A stretch of DNA of 23,245 nucleotides from the IMG/VR virus record IMGVR_UViG_3300021092_000222, positions 1-23,245 of that record; one strand, given 5' to 3'. Shown here one piece after another: positions 2,320 to 20,862 of this stretch. The notes beneath the pieces were generated by a model. That model searched no databases. It worked only from the letters and a program-made list of their open reading frames with translations, and was not told the origin of the DNA. Every line of letters starts with the position of its first letter. Position 1 is the first letter of the stretch. Origin of the DNA: a virus. A program made the position numbers and the translations under genes.

Positions 2320-2738
2320 CCCGCGCCGTAAAGGTCAACATCCTAAAGACAGATAACAACCCAAAGCGGGCTGATCTGTTTGTGGAGATAGACGACATAT
2401 CATCGCCAGTGTGGAAGCCCATCGCCGCCTTCGCCAGCTTGAAGGCGGCGGCACGGTGGCTGGAGGATGAAGGGTTTAAGTACGTTCATGGCAGTAATGG
2501 AATCTGGATCAATGACACCGCAGCAAAGAGAAAGAATGGTGCGCCTGACGCGGGTGTTCCATCTAGCAAAGGAAGCCCTGGAAGCCAGGGCGGTGAGAGT
2601 GAACAACAACAGGCCTGTGGAGTTCGACGCATTGCGGGAAAACTGGGACGTTTGGGTGCGACTCTCCGTCCCGGAAACCGCCATGTGGCGGGCGATACGG
2701 GAAGTGGAGAACCAAATCAGGGAAACGTGGGGAGATGA
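2316..2738 (+). CDS. Hypothetical protein; second half overlaps another frame (overlap or frameshift)
   Basis: A 140-residue frame starting in an ATGA overlap with the SANT-like gene. Residues 1 to about 72 look like a real globular protein (LFVEIDDISSPVWKPIAAF, then AARWLEDEGFKYVHGSNGIW). From about residue 73 the sequence turns into Gly/Ser/Arg-rich text that looks like an out-of-frame reading, and over the same bases the +1 frame (2512-2742) looks coding. Either this is an intact gene overlapping the next for about 220 bases, or a frameshift, natural or from assembly, joins the two into one protein of about 140-150 residues. No family recognised. Confidence 0.5.
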   Translation: MTRAVKVNILKTDNNPKRADLFVEIDDISSPVWKPIAAFASLKAAARWLEDEGFKYVHGSNGIWINDTAAKRKNGAPDAGVPSSKGSPGSQGGESEQQQACGVRRIAGKLGRLGATLRPGNRHVAGDTGSGEPNQGNVGR

Positions 2739-2742
2739 ATAA
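2512..2742 (+). CDS. Hypothetical helical protein in +1 frame over the previous gene
   Basis: Starting at ATG 2512 this frame gives 76 residues with natural composition: TPQQRERMVRLTRVFHLAK and EALEARAVRV form helices, followed by a Trp-rich segment (ALRENWDVWVRLSVPE) and a charged C-terminal helix. The start is uncertain: in-frame ATGs exist at 2467, 2488, 2497, 2512 and 2536, none with a good Shine-Dalgarno. This is one reason to suspect that it is the downstream half of a frameshifted gene. Its stop overlaps the beginning of the zinc-ribbon regulator. Not recognised. Confidence 0.5.
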   Translation: MTPQQRERMVRLTRVFHLAKEALEARAVRVNNNRPVEFDALRENWDVWVRLSVPETAMWRAIREVENQIRETWGDE

Positions 2743-3133
2743 TCAGCCTGATTTATTTGAATATCAGACCGAACAAGAAGCCCGCCTGCCACCAGTTCGC
2801 CATGGGCCAGGCCGTGCGGTGAATCCAGAGGTGCGGCGGCAGAGGGACGAATGGATTGCCGCTGCCCTGCAACGCGGCGAAACCTTGGCGCAGATCGCCA
2901 AGGTCGCCGGCGTCTCAACAGACACGGTGAAACGGTGGAGAGATAAAACCCATTTCTCCAACAAGTTTGAAAACCGATTTGATAAGGAACGAAAGTGCCT
3001 GTCCTGCCAAACCATGTTTTGGTCTGAGGGGCCACACAATCGCATGTGCGTAAACTGCCGGTTTAACCGGAGTTCAAATCCCTACGAGCCTGGGGCGCAT
3101 GGCAACTCTGGTAAGCAGCGCAGCAGGCTATAA
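2735..3133 (+). CDS. HTH plus zinc-ribbon transcriptional regulator
   Basis: A 132-residue protein with two DNA-related modules. Residues 47-69 form a homeodomain-like HTH (GETLAQIAKVAGVSTDTVKR). Residues 86-109 form a C4 zinc ribbon with C88, C91, C105 and C108 in the arrangement CLSC-x13-CVNC. The SEGPHNRMC segment is one I have seen in small alphaproteobacterial and phage regulators. The N-terminus contains QPDLF (residues 4-8), which fits the pentapeptide used to bind the DNA polymerase sliding clamp. It is the last gene of the plus-strand island, overlapping the stops of both frames before it. Its stop TAA overlaps the A-tract of the terminator that ends the opposing late operon. A role as activator or repressor of late or early genes is inference. 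Confidence 0.75.
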   Translation: MNNQPDLFEYQTEQEARLPPVRHGPGRAVNPEVRRQRDEWIAAALQRGETLAQIAKVAGVSTDTVKRWRDKTHFSNKFENRFDKERKCLSCQTMFWSEGPHNRMCVNCRFNRSSNPYEPGAHGNSGKQRSRL

Positions 3134-3160
3134 AAAAAAGACCCGGCACGGGGCCGGGTC
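3132..3160 (-). terminator. Intrinsic terminator of the leftward late operon
   Basis: The hairpin stem GACCCGGC (3140-3147) pairs with GCCGGGTC (3153-3160) around a 5-base loop. Read on the minus strand it is followed by eight T (3139-3132), the textbook rho-independent layout. On the plus strand the hairpin is followed by AGTTTGG rather than a T run, so it would stop rightward transcription less well. The remaining gap, 3161-3219, holds only a short GCCTG-TCGC-CAGGC hairpin near 3194-3207. Confidence 0.88.
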
Positions 3161-3219: not shown

Positions 3220-3363
3220 TCATTTCTTTTTGGATTTGCCAGCCTCTGCCATGCCAATGGCCTTGGCCTGCTTTTCGGATTTAACCACAGGCCCTTTCTT
3301 GGACCCGCTGCGCAGTTTACCGGCTTTGTATTCGCCCATGACTTTGCCCATTTTACCGTACAT
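3220..3363 (-). CDS. 47-residue basic DUF6496-like phage protein
   Basis: This frame is short but clear. The product starts MYGKMGKVMGEYKAGKLRSG, continues SKKGPVVKSEKQAKAIGMAE and ends AGKSKKK. The pattern of a basic N-terminus, K-L-R-S-G-S, V-K-S-x-K-Q-A-x-A-I-x-x-x-E and a Lys-rich tail matches the small DUF6496-type proteins common in marine and alphaproteobacterial phages; their role is unknown. The strong positive charge suggests DNA or RNA binding. ATG 3363 lies inside the end of the endolysin gene (overlap 3353-3363), and the gene is the last of the late operon, 60 bases before the terminator stem. Family assignment rests on recognition of the pattern only. Confidence 0.75.
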   Translation of the reverse strand: MYGKMGKVMGEYKAGKLRSGSKKGPVVKSEKQAKAIGMAEAGKSKKK

Positions 3364-3874
3364 CGTCTTGCATTTCCTTTGCTTTGGCTTCGACTTCATT
3401 TACGCGGCGAAGCCATCCGCGCCCGAAAACAGGGAAGGTCTTCAGCGATTTATAAAATCGCCGCCGTTCCTCTGAATACTGGCGGATTAGAGATAGTGTG
3501 TCCTGTTCCGCAACCGCCGCCAGAGTTTTTTTACCAATGCTTTTGTCGATTTGACTGCCGACAATTTCCTGAAGCATCCTGCCAGCGCGACTAACGCCTG
3601 CATTAACGGCCATATCAAACACAGATAAATCAAGGCCATCAGGTAACCCATCGCCAGCAACGCGGTCCCAGTAATGGCGACGATAAATTGTTTCAACGTG
3701 TTCATCTGGTATGTTCCTCAATTCATCTTTGGTTGCCGGTCTTCCTAGGAAATTACTGTAGGTGGTGAGCGTTATGCCTTTCATAGTGGCGCCGCCCGGA
3801 TCGTCCTTATGGTCAGACCATCCACCTTCATGGTGAAGCACCACTTCCAGGCAAGCAGAGAAATTACCCTTCAT
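3353..3874 (-). CDS. Endolysin, glycoside hydrolase family 108 (N-acetylmuramidase)
   Basis: A 173-residue lysozyme that cleaves the glycan chain of peptidoglycan to release progeny. The N-terminus holds the GH108 signature: VVLHHEGGWSDHKDDPGGAT with catalytic E16 in the EGG motif, then MKGITLTTY. The C-terminal half (GRMLQEIVG, then SIGKKTLAAV) fits the peptidoglycan-binding domain that usually accompanies GH108. There is no signal peptide or membrane anchor, so export should depend on the holin. The frame continues upstream to 3967, but ATG 3874 overlaps the holin stop as ATGA and begins exactly where family members begin. Order holin, endolysin, small basic protein ends the late operon. 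Confidence 0.9.
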   Translation of the reverse strand: MKGNFSACLEVVLHHEGGWSDHKDDPGGATMKGITLTTYSNFLGRPATKDELRNIPDEHVETIYRRHYWDRVAGDGLPDGLDLSVFDMAVNAGVSRAGRMLQEIVGSQIDKSIGKKTLAAVAEQDTLSLIRQYSEERRRFYKSLKTFPVFGRGWLRRVNEVEAKAKEMQDDVR

Positions 3875-4263
3875 CGGCGCCGCATTGCCTCCACCACGGC
3901 GGGGGCTATCTTCTCTGCCGAACGCCCAATGACGTAGCCACCAAGACCGATTTCCACGATAGACCACAACTTTAGCGCCTCTGCTTCCGAAATACCTGGC
4001 GCGCTATAGCCCATCCACCGGGCCACAATCATCCCGGTAAGCGTCAACATTACAATTGGACGCCATGTGGCGGTAAGCCAATGTTCAGACTGGGCTTCAG
4101 TTTTCACCACATCAGCGGCGGCCTGTTCAATCTGGGCACTGCGCTGCATCAGCATCATTTGCGCTTCGGCTTCGGCTTTAGCCTGCCCTTCTGAATCTGG
4201 GATAACCTTTTTGATAATGTCTCCCAGGATGGGGGCCAAAACAGGCAGTAGGGCGGCAATCAT
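3871..4263 (-). CDS. Holin, gene-transfer-agent 3TM type
   Basis: A 130-residue membrane protein of the three-helix holin family known from gene transfer agents and alphaproteobacterial phages. An N-terminal hydrophobic helix (residues 3-20, ALLPVLAPILGDIIKKVI) is followed by a charged, Gln/Ala-rich segment, then the characteristic HWLTATWRPIVMLTLTGM segment running into IVARW, and a last helix with LWSIVEIGLGGYVIGRSAEK. The W-R-P-I-V and GLGGYVIGRS-x-EK motifs are family hallmarks. It would form the inner-membrane pore that lets out the endolysin encoded directly downstream. Both junctions are ATGA overlaps. A second small membrane protein lies at 13277-13459, so lysis may use more than one. 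Confidence 0.88.
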   Translation of the reverse strand: MIAALLPVLAPILGDIIKKVIPDSEGQAKAEAEAQMMLMQRSAQIEQAAADVVKTEAQSEHWLTATWRPIVMLTLTGMIVARWMGYSAPGISEAEALKLWSIVEIGLGGYVIGRSAEKIAPAVVEAMRRR

Positions 4264-4508
4264 TCGTCTTCCACCTCCTCAGATTTAATCCACATTTCCG
4301 AATAAGCCTGATCCGAAAGACCCCGCAGTACCGCATGGGAGTAGGGAACAGCCCCGTATTTATACCCGGCTGGCGTTTCCCAAACCACCATGATCGCCAC
4401 CGCGCCATCTGCCAGGGCGGTGGAGATCATCTGCTGGGCGGCCTCGGCAAAACCAACCTCATGGTGTTCGCCAGGCTCGTCCGAATCGACAACCTTTATA
4501 CGGCGCAT
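4260..4508 (-). CDS. Small acidic protein of unknown function
   Basis: An 82-residue protein, not assigned to a named family. It opens with a beta-like MRRIKVVDS, then a helix (FAEAAQQMISTALADGA), a hydrophobic strand (VAIMVVWETP), a GYKYGAVPYSHAVLRGL segment and a very acidic end (KSEEVEDE). The alpha-beta layout recalls small phage proteins of 70-90 residues with no known role. The frame can be extended to 4568, but ATG 4508 has a GGGG ribosome site about 6 bases upstream and follows the phosphoesterase stop, so it is preferred. It overlaps the holin start as ATGA. Its place before the holin could suggest a lysis-timing role, but nothing in the sequence shows it. Confidence 0.65.
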   Translation of the reverse strand: MRRIKVVDSDEPGEHHEVGFAEAAQQMISTALADGAVAIMVVWETPAGYKYGAVPYSHAVLRGLSDQAYSEMWIKSEEVEDE

Positions 4509-4510
4509 TT

Positions 4511-5527
4511 CTACCCCCGTCCGGCTTTCTTCCGTACACGGCCACAGATTAGCTGCCCCCGGAACCAAGCGGCCCCGTCTGAAACCTCGCAGATTTCAGG
4601 CGGCATCATGACGCCATCCTTCCAAGATAGCACGACAAAGCCTTGGTTCTGGTGGCCAGGGATGCCCATGCGGTAGTTGAACTGCGGCCATGTTGGATCG
4701 CCTAGCATCCCACACTGAACGCCCCAGATACGCTTAGACCAGTGATTAAGGGGCCGCACATCCAGGGCATGGGTGTCACCACTGATAATGGTGCGCCCAG
4801 ACTTCATGGCGTTGTTATACCCAGCATGGATGCCACTGTGGTAACGGTGAACCATGGACACATCGCCAACGTCTAGCCGGTAACACATGGGCCAGTCCGG
4901 GAACTGGTCTTGCAGGGTAAAAGCGCCCATGCCCTCAAAGGCAGCGGCGTTGGCGCTTAGAAACTTATCATAGCGATCATCGTGGTTGCCCCGCACCCAA
5001 TAACACTCAGGATCACCAGCGGCTTCACGGATGTCCCGTAAATGGGTTTGGGCGGCGGCCAATTCTTCCTTAACTGTGGGTTTCTTTACATTAGACCACA
5101 TCAACGGCGGATGGCGAGAAATGGAACCCATGTCCACCGCATCACCAAGGCAGAATAAAAAACCCGGCTTAATATGCCGGGCTACATGCAACAGGGCTTC
5201 ATGGGATACGGAACGGGCTTGCGTTAATGATCGCCAGTGGCAATCAGAGAAGCAGATGGCGGTGCCATCCTGTATCGGCTCCAACTCCAGTATCAATTCT
5301 GAGTTGTGGCCTTTGTTTTCTGAATATGGGATCGCCAAAGGTTCCCGGCCAACACTGCGCGGTGTGAACCGCACATCTGGCATATTCAATAATTGAAGCG
5401 CCCGGTTATAGCGGCGCCGGAAGGTTTGATACGGGATGCCAAGCGCAATAGCGGCTTTGAAGATAGACCCATGAAGCGCGACGGCTTCATGGGCTTCTAG
5501 GAATACCTTTTTGTTGTGTGGTGTCAT
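4511..5527 (-). CDS. Metallophosphoesterase with N-terminal HTH
   Basis: A 338-residue protein of the calcineurin-like metallophosphoesterase superfamily, which hydrolyses phosphomono- or diesters at a two-metal centre. All blocks are visible: FSDCHW (D95, H97), LGDAVD (D129, D132), RGNHDD (N181, H182, D183), H227 in MVHRYHSG, and SGDTH (H253). The last block has GDTH instead of the common GHTH. Residues about 10-43 form a helix-turn-helix (AHEAVALHGSIFKAAIALG, then IPYQTFRRRY), so it may bind DNA. Substrate unknown: nucleic acid ends, nucleotides or a signalling molecule are all possible. ATG 5527 directly follows the TAA of the upstream ejection protein gene. An enzyme among ejection and lysis genes might travel in the virion or act late on DNA; both are inference. 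Confidence 0.85.
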   Translation of the reverse strand: MTPHNKKVFLEAHEAVALHGSIFKAAIALGIPYQTFRRRYNRALQLLNMPDVRFTPRSVGREPLAIPYSENKGHNSELILELEPIQDGTAICFSDCHWRSLTQARSVSHEALLHVARHIKPGFLFCLGDAVDMGSISRHPPLMWSNVKKPTVKEELAAAQTHLRDIREAAGDPECYWVRGNHDDRYDKFLSANAAAFEGMGAFTLQDQFPDWPMCYRLDVGDVSMVHRYHSGIHAGYNNAMKSGRTIISGDTHALDVRPLNHWSKRIWGVQCGMLGDPTWPQFNYRMGIPGHQNQGFVVLSWKDGVMMPPEICEVSDGAAWFRGQLICGRVRKKAGRG

Positions 5528-7261
5528 TTATTGGAGCAATCCCCGCAGGCGTTCCCGTGTTTGCTCATTCAGCATACGCTGCATGGCGGCTTGCCCAAGT
5601 TCTTCGGCTTGTGGTTGCGCCTGGATTGCACCAATTGCTGCACCACGCCCTGGAGTGGTGCCAAGTAAGCCTTGGGAGATGTTGCTGGCGGTTGGGCCAG
5701 CGACGCCCATGCGAGTAGTCCAAGGCGCGCCGTAATATAGTGATTGGGCAACACGCGGGATCATTTGAGAAGCCGCTAATGCACCAGCGCCAGTTAATGC
5801 CGATTCAACGCTACCACCCATGCCAGCGCCCAAAGCACCGCCAGCCGCGCCACCTTGCAACAAATTCATCATCTGAGTTCGCGCAGCGGTTTGGCTGTTT
5901 GATAAGGGAGAAGTTAACAAAGCGCCAGCACGGGCAAGTGGCGCAAGATCGGGGCGTTCCGCAGCCATGGCGCGGGCGCCCTGAGACTGAAGCAATGCAC
6001 CACGCAAAGAACTTGGTGCAATGTTATCACCAGCAACGGCGCGCATTGGGCCAGTACCCATCGCCTGTTCAATAGTCATCAAATTTGCGTACTGAAGCCT
6101 TGCTTCATTCAACTTAGTCAAATCTTCTGGATTTTTGACGCCAGCAGATAATGCTTCGCGCAAAGCCGCACGGATTCCCCCAAGGTGATATTTAAGATCG
6201 CCATTTTCTGCACGGCTAATCTGCCTACCAATCGCACTATCTAATTCACGCCAAGCAGAGCCAGGCATAATGCCATTTTCTGACTTATTCAGAATTTCAC
6301 TAATTCTATTCCGGACAATCTTGGCTACATCTTCTGTAGCATTTGCGCGTGCATTTGTTTCCAAATCCATCAAGCGAGCAAAACCACCAGCATTAAAATC
6401 TGCCTGATTGCGGCCAGCAATATCGCCAATGGCTTGGCCTAATTTACGTTCTTGATTTAGAAGAACATCAGCCGCAGCTTTATTTTGATCCTGAACACCA
6501 GCACGCCTCAAAACAGCACGATTGAATGCGTTCTGTATTTCTTCGTTTATCTGTTGTTCCCTACTGGTGGTGCTTGGAATATCACGGAATGCTTGTTCAG
6601 TACGCATTCTCAATTGGCTACCAGTGATGTCAGATGGACGAATAGGAACGCCTTCTGCCATCAATGTTTCTACACGGCCAGCTATGCCAGGATTAGGGTT
6701 AATGTCAGCCGCAGTAATCGGTGCAAACGCTGTCCTAGCAACCCCACGCTGCAAAGCGCCATAACCAACACCACCCGCGATCTCGCCAGCAAGGCGCGCA
6801 CCAGTCTGGGCTAATTCACCACCACCAAGGCCAGCCATCCCGCGTGCTGCGGCTTCGCCAGCGGCGCCACCAGCAGCGCCAGTGGCCATGCCGCTAATCA
6901 AGGCGCCAGGACCAGCGGGAAGCATTGCGATACCACTACCAGCACCACGCGCTGCGGATGTGATGTATGGTTCCGCCGCAGTACGCGGCGGCGGCATCTG
7001 TTCTGGATTTACGCCAGTGACTAGCTGAATGGCGGCGGGCGCTACTTCCCGAACACGGCGGCTAACAAGGCCACCAGTAAAATCAGGAATGCTTTGCGTG
7101 ACACCCTGCAAAAACGCTGCCCCGGCCCTGGCGAGCAAAGATGATTCACTCGCCCGCATTGCATCAGCGGCGCGCTGCATGGCGACATCTTGCGGAGTAC
7201 CAGCCGGAATTGGCCCCATGTAAGAGCCATCCGGCATTTGGATGTAATATGGTTCAGCCAT
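5528..7261 (-). CDS. Large Ala/Gly-rich ejection (internal virion) protein
   Basis: A 577-residue protein with the composition of podovirus DNA-ejection proteins. Alternating Gly/Ala-rich hydrophobic stretches lie around residues 100-170 (SGIAMLPAGPGALISGMATG, then AAGGAAGEAAARG) and 460-500. A charged central helical region (about 200-400; INEEIQNAFNRAVLRRAG, LLNQERKLGQAIGDIAGR) lies between them. The Gly/Ala segments could insert in membranes during genome delivery. The last of three such proteins in the operon, it follows the transglycosylase protein by 14 bases with a GGAG ribosome site 9 bases before the ATG. No enzymatic motif seen. By position and composition it resembles the third ejection protein (P22 gp7/gp16/gp20 as functional analogues), but direct homology cannot be shown by eye. 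Confidence 0.7.
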   Translation of the reverse strand: MAEPYYIQMPDGSYMGPIPAGTPQDVAMQRAADAMRASESSLLARAGAAFLQGVTQSIPDFTGGLVSRRVREVAPAAIQLVTGVNPEQMPPPRTAAEPYITSAARGAGSGIAMLPAGPGALISGMATGAAGGAAGEAAARGMAGLGGGELAQTGARLAGEIAGGVGYGALQRGVARTAFAPITAADINPNPGIAGRVETLMAEGVPIRPSDITGSQLRMRTEQAFRDIPSTTSREQQINEEIQNAFNRAVLRRAGVQDQNKAAADVLLNQERKLGQAIGDIAGRNQADFNAGGFARLMDLETNARANATEDVAKIVRNRISEILNKSENGIMPGSAWRELDSAIGRQISRAENGDLKYHLGGIRAALREALSAGVKNPEDLTKLNEARLQYANLMTIEQAMGTGPMRAVAGDNIAPSSLRGALLQSQGARAMAAERPDLAPLARAGALLTSPLSNSQTAARTQMMNLLQGGAAGGALGAGMGGSVESALTGAGALAASQMIPRVAQSLYYGAPWTTRMGVAGPTASNISQGLLGTTPGRGAAIGAIQAQPQAEELGQAAMQRMLNEQTRERLRGLLQ

Positions 7262-7275
7262 TTACAGTACTCCAA

Positions 7276-9138
7276 TCAGCGAGAACGGGGCGGCTGGAAG
7301 GGAATAATAGTAGAGCCAGGCGGTGGCGCAGATGGGCCACCGGGTTGGGTTCTGACTACGGAACTAGCGGCCAATTCACGGGCGCGGCGTAGTTCTTCCT
7401 GCCAATCCATCGGGCGATAAATTGCCCGAACTTCTTCCGGAATATTGGCGCGACCTTGAAGTGGTCCAACAATGTCATTGTATTCTTTGACGGCCCGTTC
7501 TGCCAAATCAGCATTCAAGCGAGCAATACGGCGAATTGTTTGCTCATTGAATGTAATGTTGCCAGCAGACGCTTCACGCAAGAAAATAATATCGCGATCA
7601 GAAGTTGGCCCTTTGAGTAGTTGAGAAGCAGACAACGCCTGACCAGCCAATTCAGCGCCAAGCATCTGTGTGTTAGCAGCAGCATCAGGTGGAATAATGC
7701 CAGCCGTAGTAAGCGCATTCGCAAGTGAACTAAAGAAATTAGCGCCAGTACCAGTAATTGCGCCACTATTCAGCAACTGGTTCACTCGTTCAGCACGAAG
7801 TGCCAATGTAGGGGCAATCCTTGCGGCTTGGCGGGCTTCCGTCAAATCCTTGACGGCTTGCTGCCCAAGTTCGCCAGTAAATGTACGTTCCGTATTCACA
7901 TTTACATTTGTTCCGCTACCTCGCAACCGCTGACCAAGCATTTCCAGTTCTTGATTCTGAATCGCCGTGCGATTGGCTTCAGGAATATCAGACAGTTCCC
8001 GCCAACGAGCATAGAACCGCTCATTTTCACCCGGACGCTGCGGTGCTGTCACCAATGGGCGCAAAGTAATCGGATCATAAGCTGTGCCATCAATCACTAA
8101 TGGCGCCGGCGCTTGGCGCATCATCGCCTGAATGATTGTTTGATTTGCCGGGCCTGGCCGCAACAAGTTAGTAATCATGTCAAATTCTTGCATACTAATT
8201 GGGGGGCGCCGTTGAGAAGGCATACCACCAGCCACAGAAGCTTGCGCTACTACAGGCTGACCCCCTTGCTGTGGCGCAGCAGCATATGCGCGCATAAAGG
8301 ATTCACGCACATCACCAACAGTACGGCCTTCCAATTGCTGTCTATTAGCGGCCATAGCACGGGGACCAACTATATCTGCAATCGGCGTTTCTGGCGCAGC
8401 CTGAAGAATACGCGCAGCAACAGGGCCATCAAACTGATGCGCTAAACCAAGCGTTGCGTCAGTCACAGGAAGGCCAGCATTCTGCAAAACTGCTGCGTTT
8501 CGCCGGGCATACCACTGTGTCGCAAGACCGCTAATTTCTGGCGATGTGCGTTCACGCAAGATTTGTTCGCGACTCATATTCGGGAATAGGTTTGGATTTG
8601 CCGCAGCAAAATCCAAGAATGTCTCTTCAGTAAACTGGTTTGGGCCAAGCGCAGAAGATGTGGTGCTACGCGCATCAGGACGTCCCCCACTTTCAAGACG
8701 CGTATTGATAGCCAAACCAGCAGGGCTAAAGCCCATTTGGCCAGCTTGCCCAACCTGCCCAGCGATTTGAGCCTGCGACGCAGTGAGAGTAGGCGCAGCG
8801 CCAGCCTGCCCCCCAAACAATTGCTGGCGCAATTGTTGGTTTGCTTGCCTATACCGTTCTTGTTGTCCTTGTTCGCCAATCATTTGAACAATTGGAGCCA
8901 CACTAGCAAAACCTTGGGCCGGACGCCCTCCCAATGAAGCAAAAGCATCCTGAAGCGCAGCCAAACCAAGAATGGTGCGCTGTTCAGGAAGAAGCGTATT
9001 AAATCCCCCTTGTGAACTTTGACGCGGCACAGGTGGCCCAACATCAAAAGGCTGTTGCGGGATCGGTTCGCCGCCTGGGTAATATTCAGAGGGAATACCT
9101 TGCCCCCCACCAAACAGCCGCTCAAGAAATCCAACCAT
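7276..9138 (-). CDS. Ejection protein with lytic transglycosylase/lysozyme-like domain
   Basis: A 620-residue virion-type protein. After a Gly/Pro/Gln-rich N-terminus (residues 1-135), residues about 136-290 hold a soluble-lytic-transglycosylase or lysozyme-like fold. INTRLESGGRPDARS carries the predicted catalytic E149 in the RxESG motif, SALGPNQFTEETF matches the G-x-x-Q-F block, and TLGLAHQFDGPVAARIL follows. This domain would open peptidoglycan locally so that DNA can pass. The rest is helical, with Pro-rich loops and a C-terminal segment (REASAGNITFNEQTIRR, NADLAERAVKEYNDIVG). I chose ATG 9138, with GGGGG about 8 bases upstream, over TTG 9144. The preceding 148-residue gene ends 2 bases before it. 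Virion location is inferred from context and composition. Confidence 0.8.
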   Translation of the reverse strand: MVGFLERLFGGGQGIPSEYYPGGEPIPQQPFDVGPPVPRQSSQGGFNTLLPEQRTILGLAALQDAFASLGGRPAQGFASVAPIVQMIGEQGQQERYRQANQQLRQQLFGGQAGAAPTLTASQAQIAGQVGQAGQMGFSPAGLAINTRLESGGRPDARSTTSSALGPNQFTEETFLDFAAANPNLFPNMSREQILRERTSPEISGLATQWYARRNAAVLQNAGLPVTDATLGLAHQFDGPVAARILQAAPETPIADIVGPRAMAANRQQLEGRTVGDVRESFMRAYAAAPQQGGQPVVAQASVAGGMPSQRRPPISMQEFDMITNLLRPGPANQTIIQAMMRQAPAPLVIDGTAYDPITLRPLVTAPQRPGENERFYARWRELSDIPEANRTAIQNQELEMLGQRLRGSGTNVNVNTERTFTGELGQQAVKDLTEARQAARIAPTLALRAERVNQLLNSGAITGTGANFFSSLANALTTAGIIPPDAAANTQMLGAELAGQALSASQLLKGPTSDRDIIFLREASAGNITFNEQTIRRIARLNADLAERAVKEYNDIVGPLQGRANIPEEVRAIYRPMDWQEELRRARELAASSVVRTQPGGPSAPPPGSTIIPFQPPRSR

Positions 9139-9140
9139 CG

Positions 9141-9587
9141 TCAAACCCCCAACAAAGAAGGAACCTGCAACGCCGTGCGGCGCGGGATATTGATCGCCAT
9201 GGGGCGCATAGGCGGCATGGTGACAGGCGGAAGTTGCTGCAACGGCGCAAACTGCATTTGCGGTTCTTGCTGGGCAGCCGCCGGGCGAGTTGGAGTGCGG
9301 CCAGCAGAAGTATCAAACGCATTCATAAGCGCGTTAGCGGCGGTGCCTTGGCGACCGCCAAACTGCATGGCAGCGTCAGCCAAGTAGCCAAGACCAAGTT
9401 GCCGGCGCTGTTCTGGTGTAAACCGGGCGAATGGATCAGGACGCGGGGCTTGTGGCGGATTGGTAGCAGCACCAGCCGCCGCGCCTTCAGCATAATATTC
9501 AGGACCAGCCGGCGGCATTTGCGGGTTTCCACCAAACCCAAGCAACCCGCCAAGCCTACTAAAGAAGTCTCCAAATTGCCCAAACAT
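9141..9587 (-). CDS. Small Pro/Ala/Gln-rich structural protein candidate
   Basis: A 148-residue protein, not recognised as a named family. It starts with an amphipathic Gly/Phe-rich segment (MFGQFGDFFSRLGGLLGFGG). It has a short conserved-looking core (FTPEQRRQLGLGYLADAAMQ, then GGRQGTAANALMNAF) and ends in a Pro/Met/Gln-rich tail. The core closely resembles residues about 52-83 of the next protein (PEQRTILGLAALQDAFASLG, GRPAQGF), so the two share a small module of form PEQRR-x-LGL...L.DA...GGR. It sits between two ejection-type proteins and probably is a minor virion or ejection component. Confidence 0.6.
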   Translation of the reverse strand: MFGQFGDFFSRLGGLLGFGGNPQMPPAGPEYYAEGAAAGAATNPPQAPRPDPFARFTPEQRRQLGLGYLADAAMQFGGRQGTAANALMNAFDTSAGRTPTRPAAAQQEPQMQFAPLQQLPPVTMPPMRPMAINIPRRTALQVPSLLGV

Positions 9588-13848: not shown

Positions 13849-14706
13849 TCAGAATGTGATCGAACCGGAGCCGGTCCACTTATAAACCCGATACCCCCCA
13901 GACACCGTTATATCAGGGGAACCAGTTGTTGTTCTGGCGGCTGGATAGGTGTCAGCATAACGGATAACGACGATACCAGAGCCGCCAGCGCCACTTACGT
14001 TACCCCCGCCCCCGCCCCCGCCACCCGTATTAGCAGTTCCAGATGTATTTTTTGAACCACCACCGCCTGTGCCGCCAGTTCCCCCGGTATTGCCGCTCCC
14101 ACCACCACCGCCAGCATAATAAGTAGAAACACCAGTTATTGAACTGGTGGCGCCAACACCCCCATTACCAGCTACGCTTCCACTTGCATTACCCCCAACT
14201 GCACCAGCGCCCCCCCCACCACCACCACTATGCTGTCCAGATGCTGGGTTATCAAAACCTGTACCGCCATTATTACCCTGACCAGCAGTTCCAGAACCGG
14301 CAGCGCCTCCGCCATTATTACCTAAACCACCACCACCAGACCCGCCATTTGCGCCGTCTTTTTGGGCAACATTTCTATTAAGATACCCCCCAAAACCACC
14401 GCCTGTGGATGTTACAACTGAAGATATTAGTGAATTAGACCCGTTTGTGGGCGCAATCGCATCATCAGCGTTACCAGCCGAACCACCAGCGCCAACAGTT
14501 ACAGTATAGGCATTATTGTAAACAACAGAACTAAAAGTTCCGCTTCTCATACCACCCGCACCACCACCACCACCATCCCCGGCTGGCGTACCACCCGCAC
14601 CACCACCCGCAACAATCAAATATTCAAAACTTGGCGTGACAATATTACCCGTAAACAACCCAAAAGCACGGGCTGTCATGGCGCCATGTGTGATCGCTGT
14701 GGGCAT
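13849..14706 (-). CDS. Glycine-rich adhesin 2 (putative receptor-binding protein)
   Basis: A 285-residue protein. After an N-terminal attachment segment of about 28 residues comes FEYLIVAGGGAGGTPAGDGG, then a long region of GGG/GGN runs. It ends with GSGIVVIRYADTY and the C-terminal segment TVSGGYRVYKWTGSGSITF. This organisation is that of glycine-rich-domain tail proteins, whose GG motifs can pack as polyglycine-II helices as in T-even gp38 adhesins and present variable loops to the host receptor. The C-terminus is nearly the same as that of the protein at 15953-16810, and both have exactly 285 residues, so they are paralogues. Strong ribosome site (GAGGT). Receptor-binding role is inference. 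Confidence 0.75.
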   Translation of the reverse strand: MPTAITHGAMTARAFGLFTGNIVTPSFEYLIVAGGGAGGTPAGDGGGGGAGGMRSGTFSSVVYNNAYTVTVGAGGSAGNADDAIAPTNGSNSLISSVVTSTGGGFGGYLNRNVAQKDGANGGSGGGGLGNNGGGAAGSGTAGQGNNGGTGFDNPASGQHSGGGGGGAGAVGGNASGSVAGNGGVGATSSITGVSTYYAGGGGGSGNTGGTGGTGGGGSKNTSGTANTGGGGGGGGNVSGAGGSGIVVIRYADTYPAARTTTGSPDITVSGGYRVYKWTGSGSITF

Positions 14707-14714
14707 ATCTTACC

Positions 14715-15491
14715 TCAAGCAAACCGGCTTTGGCTGGCAAGAACGGTGAATGTGGCGTTTGCCGTCTTGATTACCGTGTATGTATAAACATCAATACTGG
14801 AGGCATTACCTGTGGCTGGCGCAACGCCCCCTTGCCATTTTGCAGTAACGGTAGAACCGTCAACCTGAATGACATTATTATAATAGCCAGTAGAACCAAT
14901 GGTGGCCAAAAATGCCACTGTAACAGCCTGGCCAATGGACAAAGCATTGTTGAGCGTTGTTCCGCTCGATGCCCTGATATTTATGGTGAAATTACCAGAA
15001 GCGTTTGTGGTGTAATACAAAACAGATTGAGTGGTGACATCATAGTTAATGGTGCCAGTCGCTGCCGTCGCGGAAACCGTGGTGGTTTCAGCCGCGTTAG
15101 CTAACACACTTGCAAGCGTGCTGCTGCTGCCATTGAAAGTCTGTGTGGCCGTAAAAGTAGTGGTAGAACCCGGCGCAACATAATCAGTTCCAGCCGTCGC
15201 ATTGGCCAATGCTCCACCAGAATTAGCCTTTAGGATAGCAGTACCAGACGGGGGTGCCAGGTAATCCGTGCCAGCAGTCGCGGCAGCAAAAGCACTCGTA
15301 CCAGCACCTTTAATGATACCAGTAATAGTCTTAACGCCAGTACCACCATTGGCTACAGTCAAGGCACCAGATGCCGCAAACAACGCATCAATTGAGTCTA
15401 AATCGCTATTGATCTTGGTTCCCCAAGTATCAGCAGAAGCGCCAACTTCCGGCTTTGTAAGCCCGAGATTGGTGGTTGTTGAGTCAGCCAT
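14715..15491 (-). CDS. Tail fibre protein 2
   Basis: A 258-residue fibre-type protein. The N-terminus [20 protein letters not shown] followed by [18 protein letters not shown] is the widespread phage fibre head domain that anchors a trimer. Then come [16 protein letters not shown] and two copies of the A-T-A-G-T-D-Y-x-A-P-x-S-G unit (residues about 72-84 and 99-110), typical shaft repeats. The C-terminal half is strand-rich, with [16 protein letters not shown], and ends in a small beta domain ([18 protein letters not shown]). Good GAGGG ribosome site. It stands between the 20-residue-repeat protein and Gly-rich adhesin 2, probably forming one fibre/adhesin assembly with them. Confidence 0.8.
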
Positions 15492-15508
15492 TTATTGCAC
15501 CCTCACGG

Positions 15509-15940
15509 CTATACCGGCGTCCATGTTGTAACAGAATCAGATATTTGATTCCATGTTTTGGTACCATCTGGAATTTGCGTCCATTTTAAACTTGGCCCAA
15601 AAGTAAAATCAGATACCGCGTTAAAGGCTATTGGGTTAATGAATATGCGGTTTGTGTTTATAGTAAAATCAGAAATACCATCAATAACAATTGATGATTC
15701 TTTTATTTTTTGTATATTTACGGCAAAGTTAGAAACACCATCAATAACTAAACTAGTAGATGTTATTTTATTTGTTTGTATAGAAATTTCAGAAACAGCA
15801 TCTATTTGAATGTTGGCTTGCGCTAATCTTATTACGGAAGAAACAAAATCAGAAGCAGCATCAATCGCCACATCAATAGATATGGTTACCCCTTTTGCAG
15901 CAGAAAATGGTATTTCAGCAAAAGAAGCAGCACCAAACAT
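15509..15940 (-). CDS. Protein with five 20-residue repeats, structural candidate
   Basis: A 143-residue protein. It begins MFGAASFAEIPFSA, a start that I have seen on phage tail-associated proteins. From residue 23 it has five consecutive units in exact 20-residue register, with the common pattern S-x-x-I-D-x-V-S-D-F: DVAIDAASDF, NIQIDAVSEI, SLVIDGVSNF, SIVIDGISDF and PIAFNAVSDF. A C-terminal part with regularly spaced Trp follows (KWTQIPDGTKTWNQISDSVT, TWTPV). Regular alternating hydrophobic positions suggest a small beta-solenoid or beta-layered rod. ATG 15940 has AAGGA 9-10 bases upstream; TTG 15943 is an alternative. It sits inside the fibre cassette and may be a spacer or adhesin part. 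No named family. Confidence 0.65.
   Translation of the reverse strand: MFGAASFAEIPFSAAKGVTISIDVAIDAASDFVSSVIRLAQANIQIDAVSEISIQTNKITSTSLVIDGVSNFAVNIQKIKESSIVIDGISDFTINTNRIFINPIAFNAVSDFTFGPSLKWTQIPDGTKTWNQISDSVTTWTPV
15581..15874 (-). repeat. Five in-register 60-bp coding repeats
   Basis: Units of 60 bases encode the 20-residue repeat of the structural candidate. Bases have diverged, but the core encoding I-D-(A/G)-V/I-S-(D/N)-F is visible in each as AT-rich text, read on the plus strand as variants of AAATCAGAAACACCATCAAT. Confidence 0.75.
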
Positions 15941-15952
15941 CAATTTTATTCC

Positions 15953-16810
15953 TTAGAATGTGATTGAGCCGGAACCTGTCCATTTATAGATACGGTATCC
16001 CCCTGAAACTGTAATTGTTGGTGATCCTGTGGTTGCTGTAGCTGCGGTGAAAGAATCAGCATAACGAATAATCACTATACCGGAACCGCCCTTACCACCA
16101 CCAAACCCATCATTTGCCCCGCCGCCTCCACCACCAGTATTTGTACCACCATCAGTTAAACCAGAATTATTTGCATCCCCCCCATCTCCACCACCACCCC
16201 TCCCCCCTGTTCCCCCAGGATTAGTAGAATAAGAATTACCTCCTCCACCCCCTGCATAAGTTACAGAAGAACCAGAAATTGAAGATGATAAACCGTTCCC
16301 ACCATTACCTATCGCACTGCCATTTGCGGGTGTCGTTCCAGCAGCGCCAGCACCACCGCCACCACCACCAGGATAATTTGGGGAATTATCGCGAGAACCG
16401 CCCCCATTATTACCTTCTGCTGGAGAATATCCCCCCTGATTACCTGCGCCACCAGCGCCAACAACATTGGAGCCACCGCCCCCACCAGACCCCCCGGCGG
16501 CGCCAGCAGAATTTCTACCACCACCACCGCCGCCAGTTGATGTTATTGTAGAAAAAAGAGAATTACTTCCTTTTGATGCAACCGTTGCTCCTTGATCTGA
16601 CGGACCTCCGCTACCTCCCGCACCAACTGTTACTGTAATTGCACTTCCAGCAGTTACAGAAAAACCACTGGCTGTTCTAAATCCTCCGGCGCCTCCACCA
16701 CCGCCACGATTGCCGCCACCGCCACCGCCACCAGCGACAACTAAATATTCAACCGCAGTCGGAGCGCCAGCAGCCGCAGAAGTTGATAAAAACATCTGCT
16801 GAATAGTCAT
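15953..16810 (-). CDS. Glycine-rich adhesin 1 (putative receptor-binding protein)
   Basis: A 285-residue protein. A short N-terminal segment (MTIQQMFLSTSAAAGAPTAV) precedes EYLVVAGGG and a long glycine-rich region full of GGG/GGN runs alternating with short variable Ser/Asn loops. It ends GSGIVIIRYADSF and then TVSGGYRIYKWTGSGSITF. The pattern is that of glycine-rich tail-tip or fibre-tip adhesins with polyglycine-II packing. The start overlaps the stop of fibre 1 as TGATG, so it is coupled to that fibre and probably caps it. It is a paralogue of the protein at 13849-14706, with the same length, the same ends and different interior loops. Receptor binding is inference. Confidence 0.77.
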   Translation of the reverse strand: MTIQQMFLSTSAAAGAPTAVEYLVVAGGGGGGGNRGGGGGAGGFRTASGFSVTAGSAITVTVGAGGSGGPSDQGATVASKGSNSLFSTITSTGGGGGGRNSAGAAGGSGGGGGSNVVGAGGAGNQGGYSPAEGNNGGGSRDNSPNYPGGGGGGAGAAGTTPANGSAIGNGGNGLSSSISGSSVTYAGGGGGNSYSTNPGGTGGRGGGGDGGDANNSGLTDGGTNTGGGGGGANDGFGGGKGGSGIVIIRYADSFTAATATTGSPTITVSGGYRIYKWTGSGSITF

Positions 16811-17883
16811 CAGGTAACCCCAGCGCCAGAAATAACAAACGTGTTAGAAGCTACACACAACACAGTACAAATACCGCGCTGCGCCAAGGTTCTATTACCC
16901 GTTGTGGCGGTTCCCCCAAGATACATAGTTACGCTAGCGCCTTGGGTAATCGTCTGATTACTAGTGCTATTATTGTAAATACTAATCGCATCGCCAGCAC
17001 TGAACACACTAGCAGGAACAGTAACACCGCCAGTAGTGATACTGATATGCTTACCAGCATCTCCAACAACCAATGTATAAGCAGAAGTCTGGGAGTTCTG
17101 TACAACAGTACGAACATCACCCTTACTATCCCGAATAGTGCCGTTTACATCCAAAGCCGTGCTTGGCGTTGCCGTACCAATACCCAACCGATTATTAGTA
17201 TCATCCCAAAATAAATTCGCATTATCTTGTGAATAAACGCCAGACGCCCCAGCAAAAACAACAGAACCAGTTGTAAATGCTGTTGTTGTCCCAGTACCAC
17301 CATTTGCGACTGGTAACGTCCCGCTAATATGTGTTGTTAAACCGATTTTACCATAAGATGGCGCAGTCCCAACACCGCCAGAAATGAGTGCATTCCCAGT
17401 GGCCACACCAGCCAACTTAGAGAGTGCCGTAGAGCCACTAGCATAAAGCAAATCACCAGTTGTGTATGATGATTGGCCCGTTCCGCCGTTAGCCGCAACC
17501 AGCGTACCAGCTAAAGTAATAGAACCATAAGAAGCGGTTGATGGCGTTAAACCAGTAGTACCACCATCAACAGATTGAACCGTTCTAGCAGCCGGTAAAG
17601 TAATAAAAACATCTTTTGTGCCAGCCGCAAAATTAACGGCATTTCCAGAATTACTGGAAGACAAAATAGTTGTACGGGCCAAAGTAGAAGGGGATGTAAA
17701 TGTCCCAACTCCAACTTCCCAATTGGTCCCGCCTTGTTCAGCAATTGTATAATAAGTTGTGTCACTAGAAGACAGCACAGAAGAAAAGGCACGGAAGCCC
17801 GTAACCGCACCAGCTAGGGTAAAATTACCCGTTCCGGTACTGGTCGAAGTTTCTTTAACCCGATCAGCGATTACGAAAGCCAT
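16810..17883 (-). CDS. Tail fibre protein 1
   Basis: A 357-residue fibre protein. An N-terminal domain (residues about 1-100; ADRVKETSTSTGTGNFTLAG, VGTFTSPSTLARTTILSSSN) is the fibre attachment domain found in many marine and soil phages. It is followed by shaft repeats GTLVAANGGTGQSSYTTGDL and GTLPVANGGTGTTTAFTTGS. Then comes the motif NRLGIGTATPSTALDVNGT that often precedes fibre tip domains, and a strand-rich C-terminus (HISITTGGVTVPASVFSAGD). No enzymatic domain or intramolecular chaperone is seen. The last bases overlap the first Gly-rich adhesin. The V-A-N-G-G-T-G repeat is shared with fibre 2. Confidence 0.83.
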   Translation of the reverse strand: MAFVIADRVKETSTSTGTGNFTLAGAVTGFRAFSSVLSSSDTTYYTIAEQGGTNWEVGVGTFTSPSTLARTTILSSSNSGNAVNFAAGTKDVFITLPAARTVQSVDGGTTGLTPSTASYGSITLAGTLVAANGGTGQSSYTTGDLLYASGSTALSKLAGVATGNALISGGVGTAPSYGKIGLTTHISGTLPVANGGTGTTTAFTTGSVVFAGASGVYSQDNANLFWDDTNNRLGIGTATPSTALDVNGTIRDSKGDVRTVVQNSQTSAYTLVVGDAGKHISITTGGVTVPASVFSAGDAISIYNNSTSNQTITQGASVTMYLGGTATTGNRTLAQRGICTVLCVASNTFVISGAGVT

Positions 17884-19896: not shown

Positions 19897-20862
19897 TTAC
19901 GACGCGTTCAAGTCAGCAGCAATGCCGTGCGCGGCCTGCTGGCGAACCATGAGGCCATATTCGCAAAGCATCATGCGCTTTTCCGCATCGCCCGTCTTCG
20001 CCAGGTCCATCGTCTGGATCGGGCGGAGAATGGCGGTAGCCGCGTATTCCGGATCAAGCACGAACGCATCACGCTCACGCTGGAAGCGGTTAGGCACTAC
20101 AGACACCGCACCAAAGTCAGACACATAAACGTCAGCAGCGCCGATAATCACAGTCGGGCGAGGGGTCGCCTGATTGTAACGGATTTCGGCAATGCCAGCG
20201 AAGCCAGAAACCGCCTGCTTGTTGAACGGGCCAACCATCAGGATTTTCGGCGTACCGCCCTGCGTCCACACCTTGGAAATGACATCCTTCAGGATGGTTT
20301 CCGTGAAAGTGCGCTGCGTACCATCAACGCGGGTGGCGTTCACAACACCGTTAGAAACGGTGGGGTCAGAACCGCCAGAGCCATAGTTGGTGTTGGTGCG
20401 CAGGAACGCGGGAAGGCCCGCAGTCTGGCGCGCAGTGGCGTTGTTACCAGCGTTGGCGGCCTTAGAGGCAAGCAACGTGGCTTCCATGTCGCGCTTCAGT
20501 TCTGCACCGTTCTTCGCCATCTGATAAGCGAGTTCCGAACGGCGACCAGCCTTGTCCACGCTCTCCAGGGTACCGGAGATCACAACCGTCTTGCGGCTGA
20601 TCTGCGTGTAATTGCCCAGACGAGTGGTGGGGGTCACGGCATCGAAGGACGAAATATCATCGCCTTCAAGCGCCGCATTGGTGGTAGAAGCCGCCGCCAG
20701 GCTATCGGTCTGCCACTCAAAGAACGTGTTCTTCACGTTCACGCGGGCAGTGTTAGACTGGAACGGGGTTTCTTCCGGCGAAATGTTGTAGATCACATTC
20801 GCCAGGTCTTCACGGATGCCCTTGGCATCATAACGCGTGAAGGTATTGGTTACGATAGTCAT
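19897..20862 (-). CDS. Major capsid protein, SU10-like (HK97 fold)
   Basis: A 321-residue capsid subunit of the SU10 major capsid family. Diagnostic segments are EDLANVIYNISPEETPF (residues 18-34), FEWQTD (48-53), LEGDD (65-69), LGNYTQISRKTVVISGT (82-98), then KAGRRSELAYQMAKNGAEL and KRDMEATLLASK, and a TAGLPAFLRTNTNYG stretch. The A-x-V-I-Y-N-I-S-P...TPF and GNYTQISRK phrases are nearly constant in the family, so the assignment is strong. The product should form the icosahedral or elongated shell with the scaffold encoded just upstream. AAAGGAAA lies 6 bases before ATG 20862, an excellent ribosome site. The downstream hairpin may help to raise its level relative to later genes. Confidence 0.93.
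   Translation of the reverse strand: MTIVTNTFTRYDAKGIREDLANVIYNISPEETPFQSNTARVNVKNTFFEWQTDSLAAASTTNAALEGDDISSFDAVTPTTRLGNYTQISRKTVVISGTLESVDKAGRRSELAYQMAKNGAELKRDMEATLLASKAANAGNNATARQTAGLPAFLRTNTNYGSGGSDPTVSNGVVNATRVDGTQRTFTETILKDVISKVWTQGGTPKILMVGPFNKQAVSGFAGIAEIRYNQATPRPTVIIGAADVYVSDFGAVSVVPNRFQRERDAFVLDPEYAATAILRPIQTMDLAKTGDAEKRMMLCEYGLMVRQQAAHGIAADLNAS

Follow-up and report, generated by a model that had tools for sequence, protein, structure and literature searches.

What role a metallophosphoesterase plays when it carries a DNA-binding-type domain of its own and is encoded beside lysis genes is the question raised by this locus, since phage metallophosphoesterases are common and their function is mostly not assigned. 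The window, which is the whole 23,245-nucleotide stretch analysed here (IMG/VR record IMGVR_UViG_3300021092_000222, positions 1 to 23,245), contains at 4511..5527 (-) an ORF with an ATG start and 338 aa, whose product is an N-terminal helix-turn-helix (HTH) fused to a calcineurin-like metallophosphoesterase domain. The HTH (aa 3-46; 5390..5521, -) is followed by a poorly conserved linker (aa 47-85; 5273..5389, -), in which the model confidence falls below 50 at aa 58-75, and by the metallophosphoesterase domain (aa ~86-330; 4538..5272, -). In the Pfam search of the 338-aa protein, PF00149 (Metallophos) matches aa 91-223 with 28.4 bits (cut-off 21.5) and HTH_psq (PF05225) matches aa 9-47 with 21.1 bits (cut-off 20.4), the latter rising to 25.4 bits when the first 56 aa are the sole query. 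Besides, aa 103-325 align to positions 121-359 of the 367-position profile PHROG_221, metallo-phosphoesterase (E 3.6e-20). All five metallophosphoesterase motifs are present, namely motif I D95-x-H97, motif II G128-D129, motif III G180-N181-H182-D183, motif IV H227 and motif V G250-D251-T252-H253 (4769..4780, -), the last being GDTH and not GHTH. The first-pass annotation had described an HTH in front of a metallophosphoesterase with five intact blocks and this same substitution, and both descriptions hold.

The predicted structure agrees with the profiles. The full-length AlphaFold2 model, built on 51 aligned sequences from the window and viral contigs, has a mean pLDDT of 83, with helices at aa 3-19, 22-29 and 33-46 in the N-terminal part and alternating strands and helices in the catalytic part, as the superfamily fold expects. 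The first 56 residues modelled alone reach a pLDDT of 94, and in PDB they match mainly DNA-binding domains of the LysR and LuxR types, with probability up to 1.00 and no E below 0.05. Thus the three-helix HTH is recognised by both profile and predicted structure, while the Pfam score, the motifs and the modelled fold together place the protein in the PF00149 superfamily.

To see whether the closest fold is that of a housekeeping phosphatase without HTH, the full model was compared with PDB, which returned a weak mix of Rv0805, LpxH, GpdQ, Mre11, SbcD and PolD, all with TM-scores below 0.5; phage phosphoesterases match the model far better than PDB entries do. Rv0805 and LpxH rank above Mre11, but the match to top-ranked Rv0805 is weak, with a TM-score of about 0.4, and although Rv0805 is also the best solved-structure match of the sequence profile, its best profile stretch covers 16 residues. 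The profile match to SbcD (E 0.004) extends over 69 positions only, and searching solved structures with the single sequence gave a chance match only. With such TM-scores and a low-confidence linker, the PDB fold search does not separate a nuclease from a cyclic-nucleotide phosphodiesterase or a lipid phosphatase, and we discarded it as a discriminator. No NCBIfam model matched above its cut-off, including the specific Mre11/SbcD family and the LpxH family, and the likeness to LpxH is at fold level only; the PADLOC defence library likewise gave no match above its cut-offs.

These comparisons bear on the earlier proposal that the enzyme destroys a nucleotide signal of host defence. A counter-defence phosphodiesterase would hydrolyse an alarm signal in the form of a cyclic nucleotide or cyclic oligonucleotide, and its HTH would serve for dimerisation or autoregulation. 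Such a role is suggested by Rv0805, a cyclic nucleotide phosphodiesterase that is the best match in both PDB and profile searches, by the GNHDxR motif common to the Rv0805/CpdA-type enzymes and the window protein, and by D29 gp66, a phage calcineurin-type enzyme that is a 2',3'-cyclic nucleotide phosphodiesterase (Dutta et al. 2014, as cited in PMC12287305). However, the Rv0805/CpdA-type enzymes have no HTH, unlike the window protein, and a small-molecule enzyme needs none; the defence library is silent, and a place in the late operon beside lysis genes is late for this role. The GNHD core, moreover, is widespread in the metallophosphoesterase superfamily, which takes weight from the motif. 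We therefore regard a counter-defence function as somewhat unlikely.

The location in the late operon, described earlier as an ejection/lysis region, was confirmed by the neighbouring genes, which are tightly packed. Upstream are a 622-aa protein (7276..9144, -), a probable virion ejection protein with a transglycosylase match (phrog_4067), and a 577-aa Ala/Gly-rich protein without family match (5528..7261, -), probably a virion or ejection protein, the stop of which abuts the phosphoesterase start. Downstream are an 82-aa gene with no assigned function (4260..4508, -), whose ATG lies two bases past the phosphoesterase stop, a holin (3871..4263, -; GTA_holin_3TM / phrog_3427) and an endolysin ORF (3353..3967, -; phrog_315), whose true start is probably near 3871. 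The related locus L003 keeps the phosphoesterase, the 82-aa protein, the holin and the endolysin at 94, 99, 88 and 83% identity, respectively, whereas nothing there corresponds to the 577-aa gene and the 622-aa gene is matched in part only. Directly upstream of the same lysis block, L003 has a different 659-aa Ala/Gly-rich protein (L003 6020-7999) in place of the 577-aa protein, which suggests modular exchange of the ejection genes. Since the lysis block is kept while the 577-aa gene is replaced, the phosphoesterase gene appears to travel with the holin-endolysin cassette, not with the ejection genes.

This arrangement speaks against the suggestion that the protein travels with the DNA, that is, a virion protein ejected with the genome and acting on DNA ends at entry. 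The gene does lie directly behind two large probable ejection-protein genes, and the protein has a weak match to a PHROG named DNA transfer protein (E 0.013). But the L003 gene stays with the lysis cassette when the ejection-like gene is replaced, and the relatives' genes are near lysis or recombination genes and in most cases not beside annotated ejection genes, so we find this role scarcely credible.

In the relatives overall, the neighbours are lysis genes, or else recombination (RusA/NinG/YqaJ/Hjc), helicase and methyltransferase genes. For example, among the three genes upstream of the phosphoesterase in about 47 loci there are 14 Pfam matches of endolysin type (GH108, M15, phage lysozyme and GH19), each taken as one protein, and 3 holins, together with NinG, YqaJ and Hjc; these are raw counts. 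Some of these surroundings are lambda-like (NinG, RusA, lysis), and in the lambda gene order the protein phosphatase gene NinI (orf221) is close to the lysis genes. By this likeness, and by its membership of the metallophosphoesterase superfamily, the window protein might be a protein or small-molecule phosphatase tuning host takeover or lysis timing. The sequence searches gave no specific similarity to protein phosphatases, though, and the HTH would be left unexplained, which makes such a phosphatase very unlikely.

We then asked whether the fusion is peculiar to this phage, as the first-pass annotation had called it unusual. An alignment-based scan showed that relatives are encoded on at least 598 viral contigs, of which the best 80, ranked by similarity to the window protein, were retained; a scan of genome contigs gave eight distant loci, mostly from metagenome-assembled genomes. 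The set of 86 sequences used below consists of 79 of the retained loci (one duplicate removed), L003, the window and five records from phage and plasmid collections. In all complete members of this set of closest relatives the N-terminal part can be aligned with the HTH, although in individual members the HTH is often below the Pfam thresholds and is there recognised by alignment. The set is biased to close relatives, and distant ones may differ in architecture, but in the group inspected the HTH fusion is, by alignment, typical and by no means confined to the window; the word unusual did not stand. The same two-domain architecture occurs, at 29-34% identity, in four phage-collection records, namely the Manatee Spring genomes MW202879, MW202674 and MW202691 (Caudoviricetes) and Microcystis phage Mvi-Yong1342-1, whose proteins have GHTH or GHLH where the window protein has GDTH. 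Their product names are only phosphodiesterase or (metallo)phosphoesterase, with the HTH unmentioned. In the open-licence literature, our searches brought up no description of a phage protein in which an HTH is fused to a phosphoesterase. The window protein is an HTH-fused, Asp-motif-V form of a known phage enzyme family, and the activity of the HTH form is apparently only predicted so far.

Judged by sequence, the nearest experimentally studied relatives are the phosphoesterases of cluster A mycobacteriophages. With hhalign, the family aligned to Kratark gp52, D29 gp54 and Bxb1 gp47 over 230 columns (99.5% probability, E 3e-22), and shares the catalytic domain with these proteins as far as the C-terminus. 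In contrast with the window protein, the cluster A proteins examined start at the catalytic domain without HTH, have D-x-Q instead of D-x-H in motif I and GHTH instead of GDTH in motif V, and are encoded among replication genes, not lysis genes. Two relatives that have been studied differ widely in function, one degrading DNA and the other controlling recombination. A10ZJ24 Gp48 is active both as a phosphodiesterase and as a nuclease; it breaks down DNA in cells, and in vitro it degrades linear, plasmid and genomic DNA, which is abolished by motif mutation (PMC12287305). Bxb1 gp47, according to the account given in PMC12287305, is reported to show no phosphoesterase activity and to serve as a recombination directionality factor. 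A further phage protein, ORF11 of the OM43 phage MEP301, is similar as far as its description goes, being a calcineurin-like phosphoesterase numbered beside a peptidase M15 lysis gene, and its function is called unclear by its authors (PMC8024684).

Among the three functions proposed by the first-pass annotation, processing of DNA ranks best, since the closest relative with a studied activity is an enzyme that degrades DNA (PMC12287305) and such a task suits a protein with an HTH. The mechanism we favour, to which we give a little less than an even chance, is an HTH-tethered, metal-dependent phosphodiesterase or nuclease that acts late in infection, with DNA as its substrate. The N-terminal HTH would bind DNA and hold the two-metal phosphodiesterase on it; the protein would be expressed from the late operon together with the lysis genes, and would most likely cut phosphodiester bonds of DNA, either in host DNA remnants or in branched or broken phage replication intermediates, the latter before and during packaging. 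Its action would resemble that of A10ZJ24 Gp48 and of the Mre11/SbcD nucleases, which have the same superfamily fold and give weak structural and profile matches to the window protein. No gene of Rad50/SbcC type was seen among the annotated genes of the window, which is a fragment, or among the commonest neighbour families of the relatives, so the enzyme would act without such a partner encoded nearby.

Several results are counted for this mechanism. Both domains score above curated cut-offs and are confidently modelled, the metal ligands are conserved and dN/dS is low; in family members the N-terminal segment has a median net charge of +3 and the catalytic part of -5. The homology to Gp48, the recombination-gene neighbours and the weak sub-threshold matches of three family members to PdeM, a DNA-damage endonuclease, point to cutting of DNA. 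A conserved HTH added to a Gp48-type enzyme argues for DNA as substrate or platform, and a widespread form with its own DNA-binding domain would narrow the likely substrate to DNA. On the other hand, the catalytic domain is net-negative in most members, an atypical surface for a nuclease; the ranking of Rv0805 and LpxH above Mre11 does not single out nucleases; and the HTH is missing from the cluster A proteins examined. A bolder version, in which the protein is a sequence-directed stand-alone nuclease, with the HTH replacing Rad50/SbcC and the His-to-Asp change altering which metal or substrate is preferred, seems to us quite unlikely.

The role of that change was considered separately. Asp251 of the window protein stands in the place of the first His of GHxH, which in this superfamily is a ligand of the second metal. 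The position is occupied by Asp in 18 of the 86 sequences and by His in 68, and the 18 Asp sequences form one clade with a branch support of 100/100, so that GDTH is specific to a lineage; the other metal ligands are invariant or nearly so across the set. In this clade, L026 has an endolysin directly upstream of the gene, while L017 and L023 have RusA, helicase and methyltransferase genes nearby. Selection was estimated against the L003 homologue (94% identical), from which the window gene differs at 112 nucleotides and 19 amino acids. The dN/dS is 0.029/0.544 overall, or about 0.05, with 0.036/0.496 for the HTH and 0.021/0.527 for the catalytic domain. Both domains are under strong purifying selection, which indicates that neither is a chance ORF.

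What is probably the same position has been mutated in a relative, the H175D mutant of A10ZJ24 Gp48 being non-toxic (PMC12287305). In the Kratark, Bxb1 and Severus proteins, which are numbered like the Gp48 mutants (D10, D41), the first His of GHTH carries the number 175, while the numbering of the D29 protein is shifted by one relative to these three. Asp251 would therefore correspond to H175D of Gp48 if this register holds for A10ZJ24 as well, and activity may then be changed or lost in the Asp form, which counts against our preferred mechanism. The members of the Asp clade could, like Bxb1 gp47, be non-catalytic or weakly catalytic DNA-binding regulators, as would fit the natural Asp at a metal-ligand position, the occurrence of this HTH type in transcription regulators, and the place of Bxb1 gp47 in the related family, as given by the profile comparison and by PMC12287305. 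We consider this unlikely, since no integrase match was obtained among the window genes scanned and the gene is tightly linked to lysis genes. Besides, the remaining ligands are invariant or nearly so, the catalytic domain is not changing more rapidly than the HTH, and Asp is itself able to bind metal. Because the clade is kept by purifying selection, its enzyme is more likely retuned than dead, and our preferred mechanism, DNA cleavage by an HTH-tethered enzyme, takes it as probably active with Asp at position 251. The natural split between GHTH and GDTH could serve as a direct test of what this metal ligand determines.

Some other features of the window were recorded. A hairpin with a T run resembling an intrinsic terminator is located within the phosphoesterase ORF, on the same strand as the gene (5161-5183, -), and L003 keeps it with one synonymous change; it was rejected as a special element, as 39 of 322 stretches of equal length are equally conserved and the sister clade is without the hairpin. 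A strong terminator-like hairpin followed by eight T (3140-3160, -) separates the late operon from convergent genes on the opposite strand, at the end of which a small HTH protein with weak terminase-small-subunit matches is encoded (2735-3133, +). At 13849-17883 (-), two probable tail-gene pairs share phrog_5906 (twice) and phrog_2295 (twice) in the same order, a hint of an old duplication; tandem duplication was not retained, as the direct protein comparison gave mainly Gly-rich similarity. Finally, the major capsid protein (19897-20862, -) is about 57-63% identical to those of the Manatee Spring phages and Sinorhizobium phage phiM5, and 45-50% identical to those of Methylophilales and Pelagibacter phages, which suggests an aquatic proteobacterial phage lineage.
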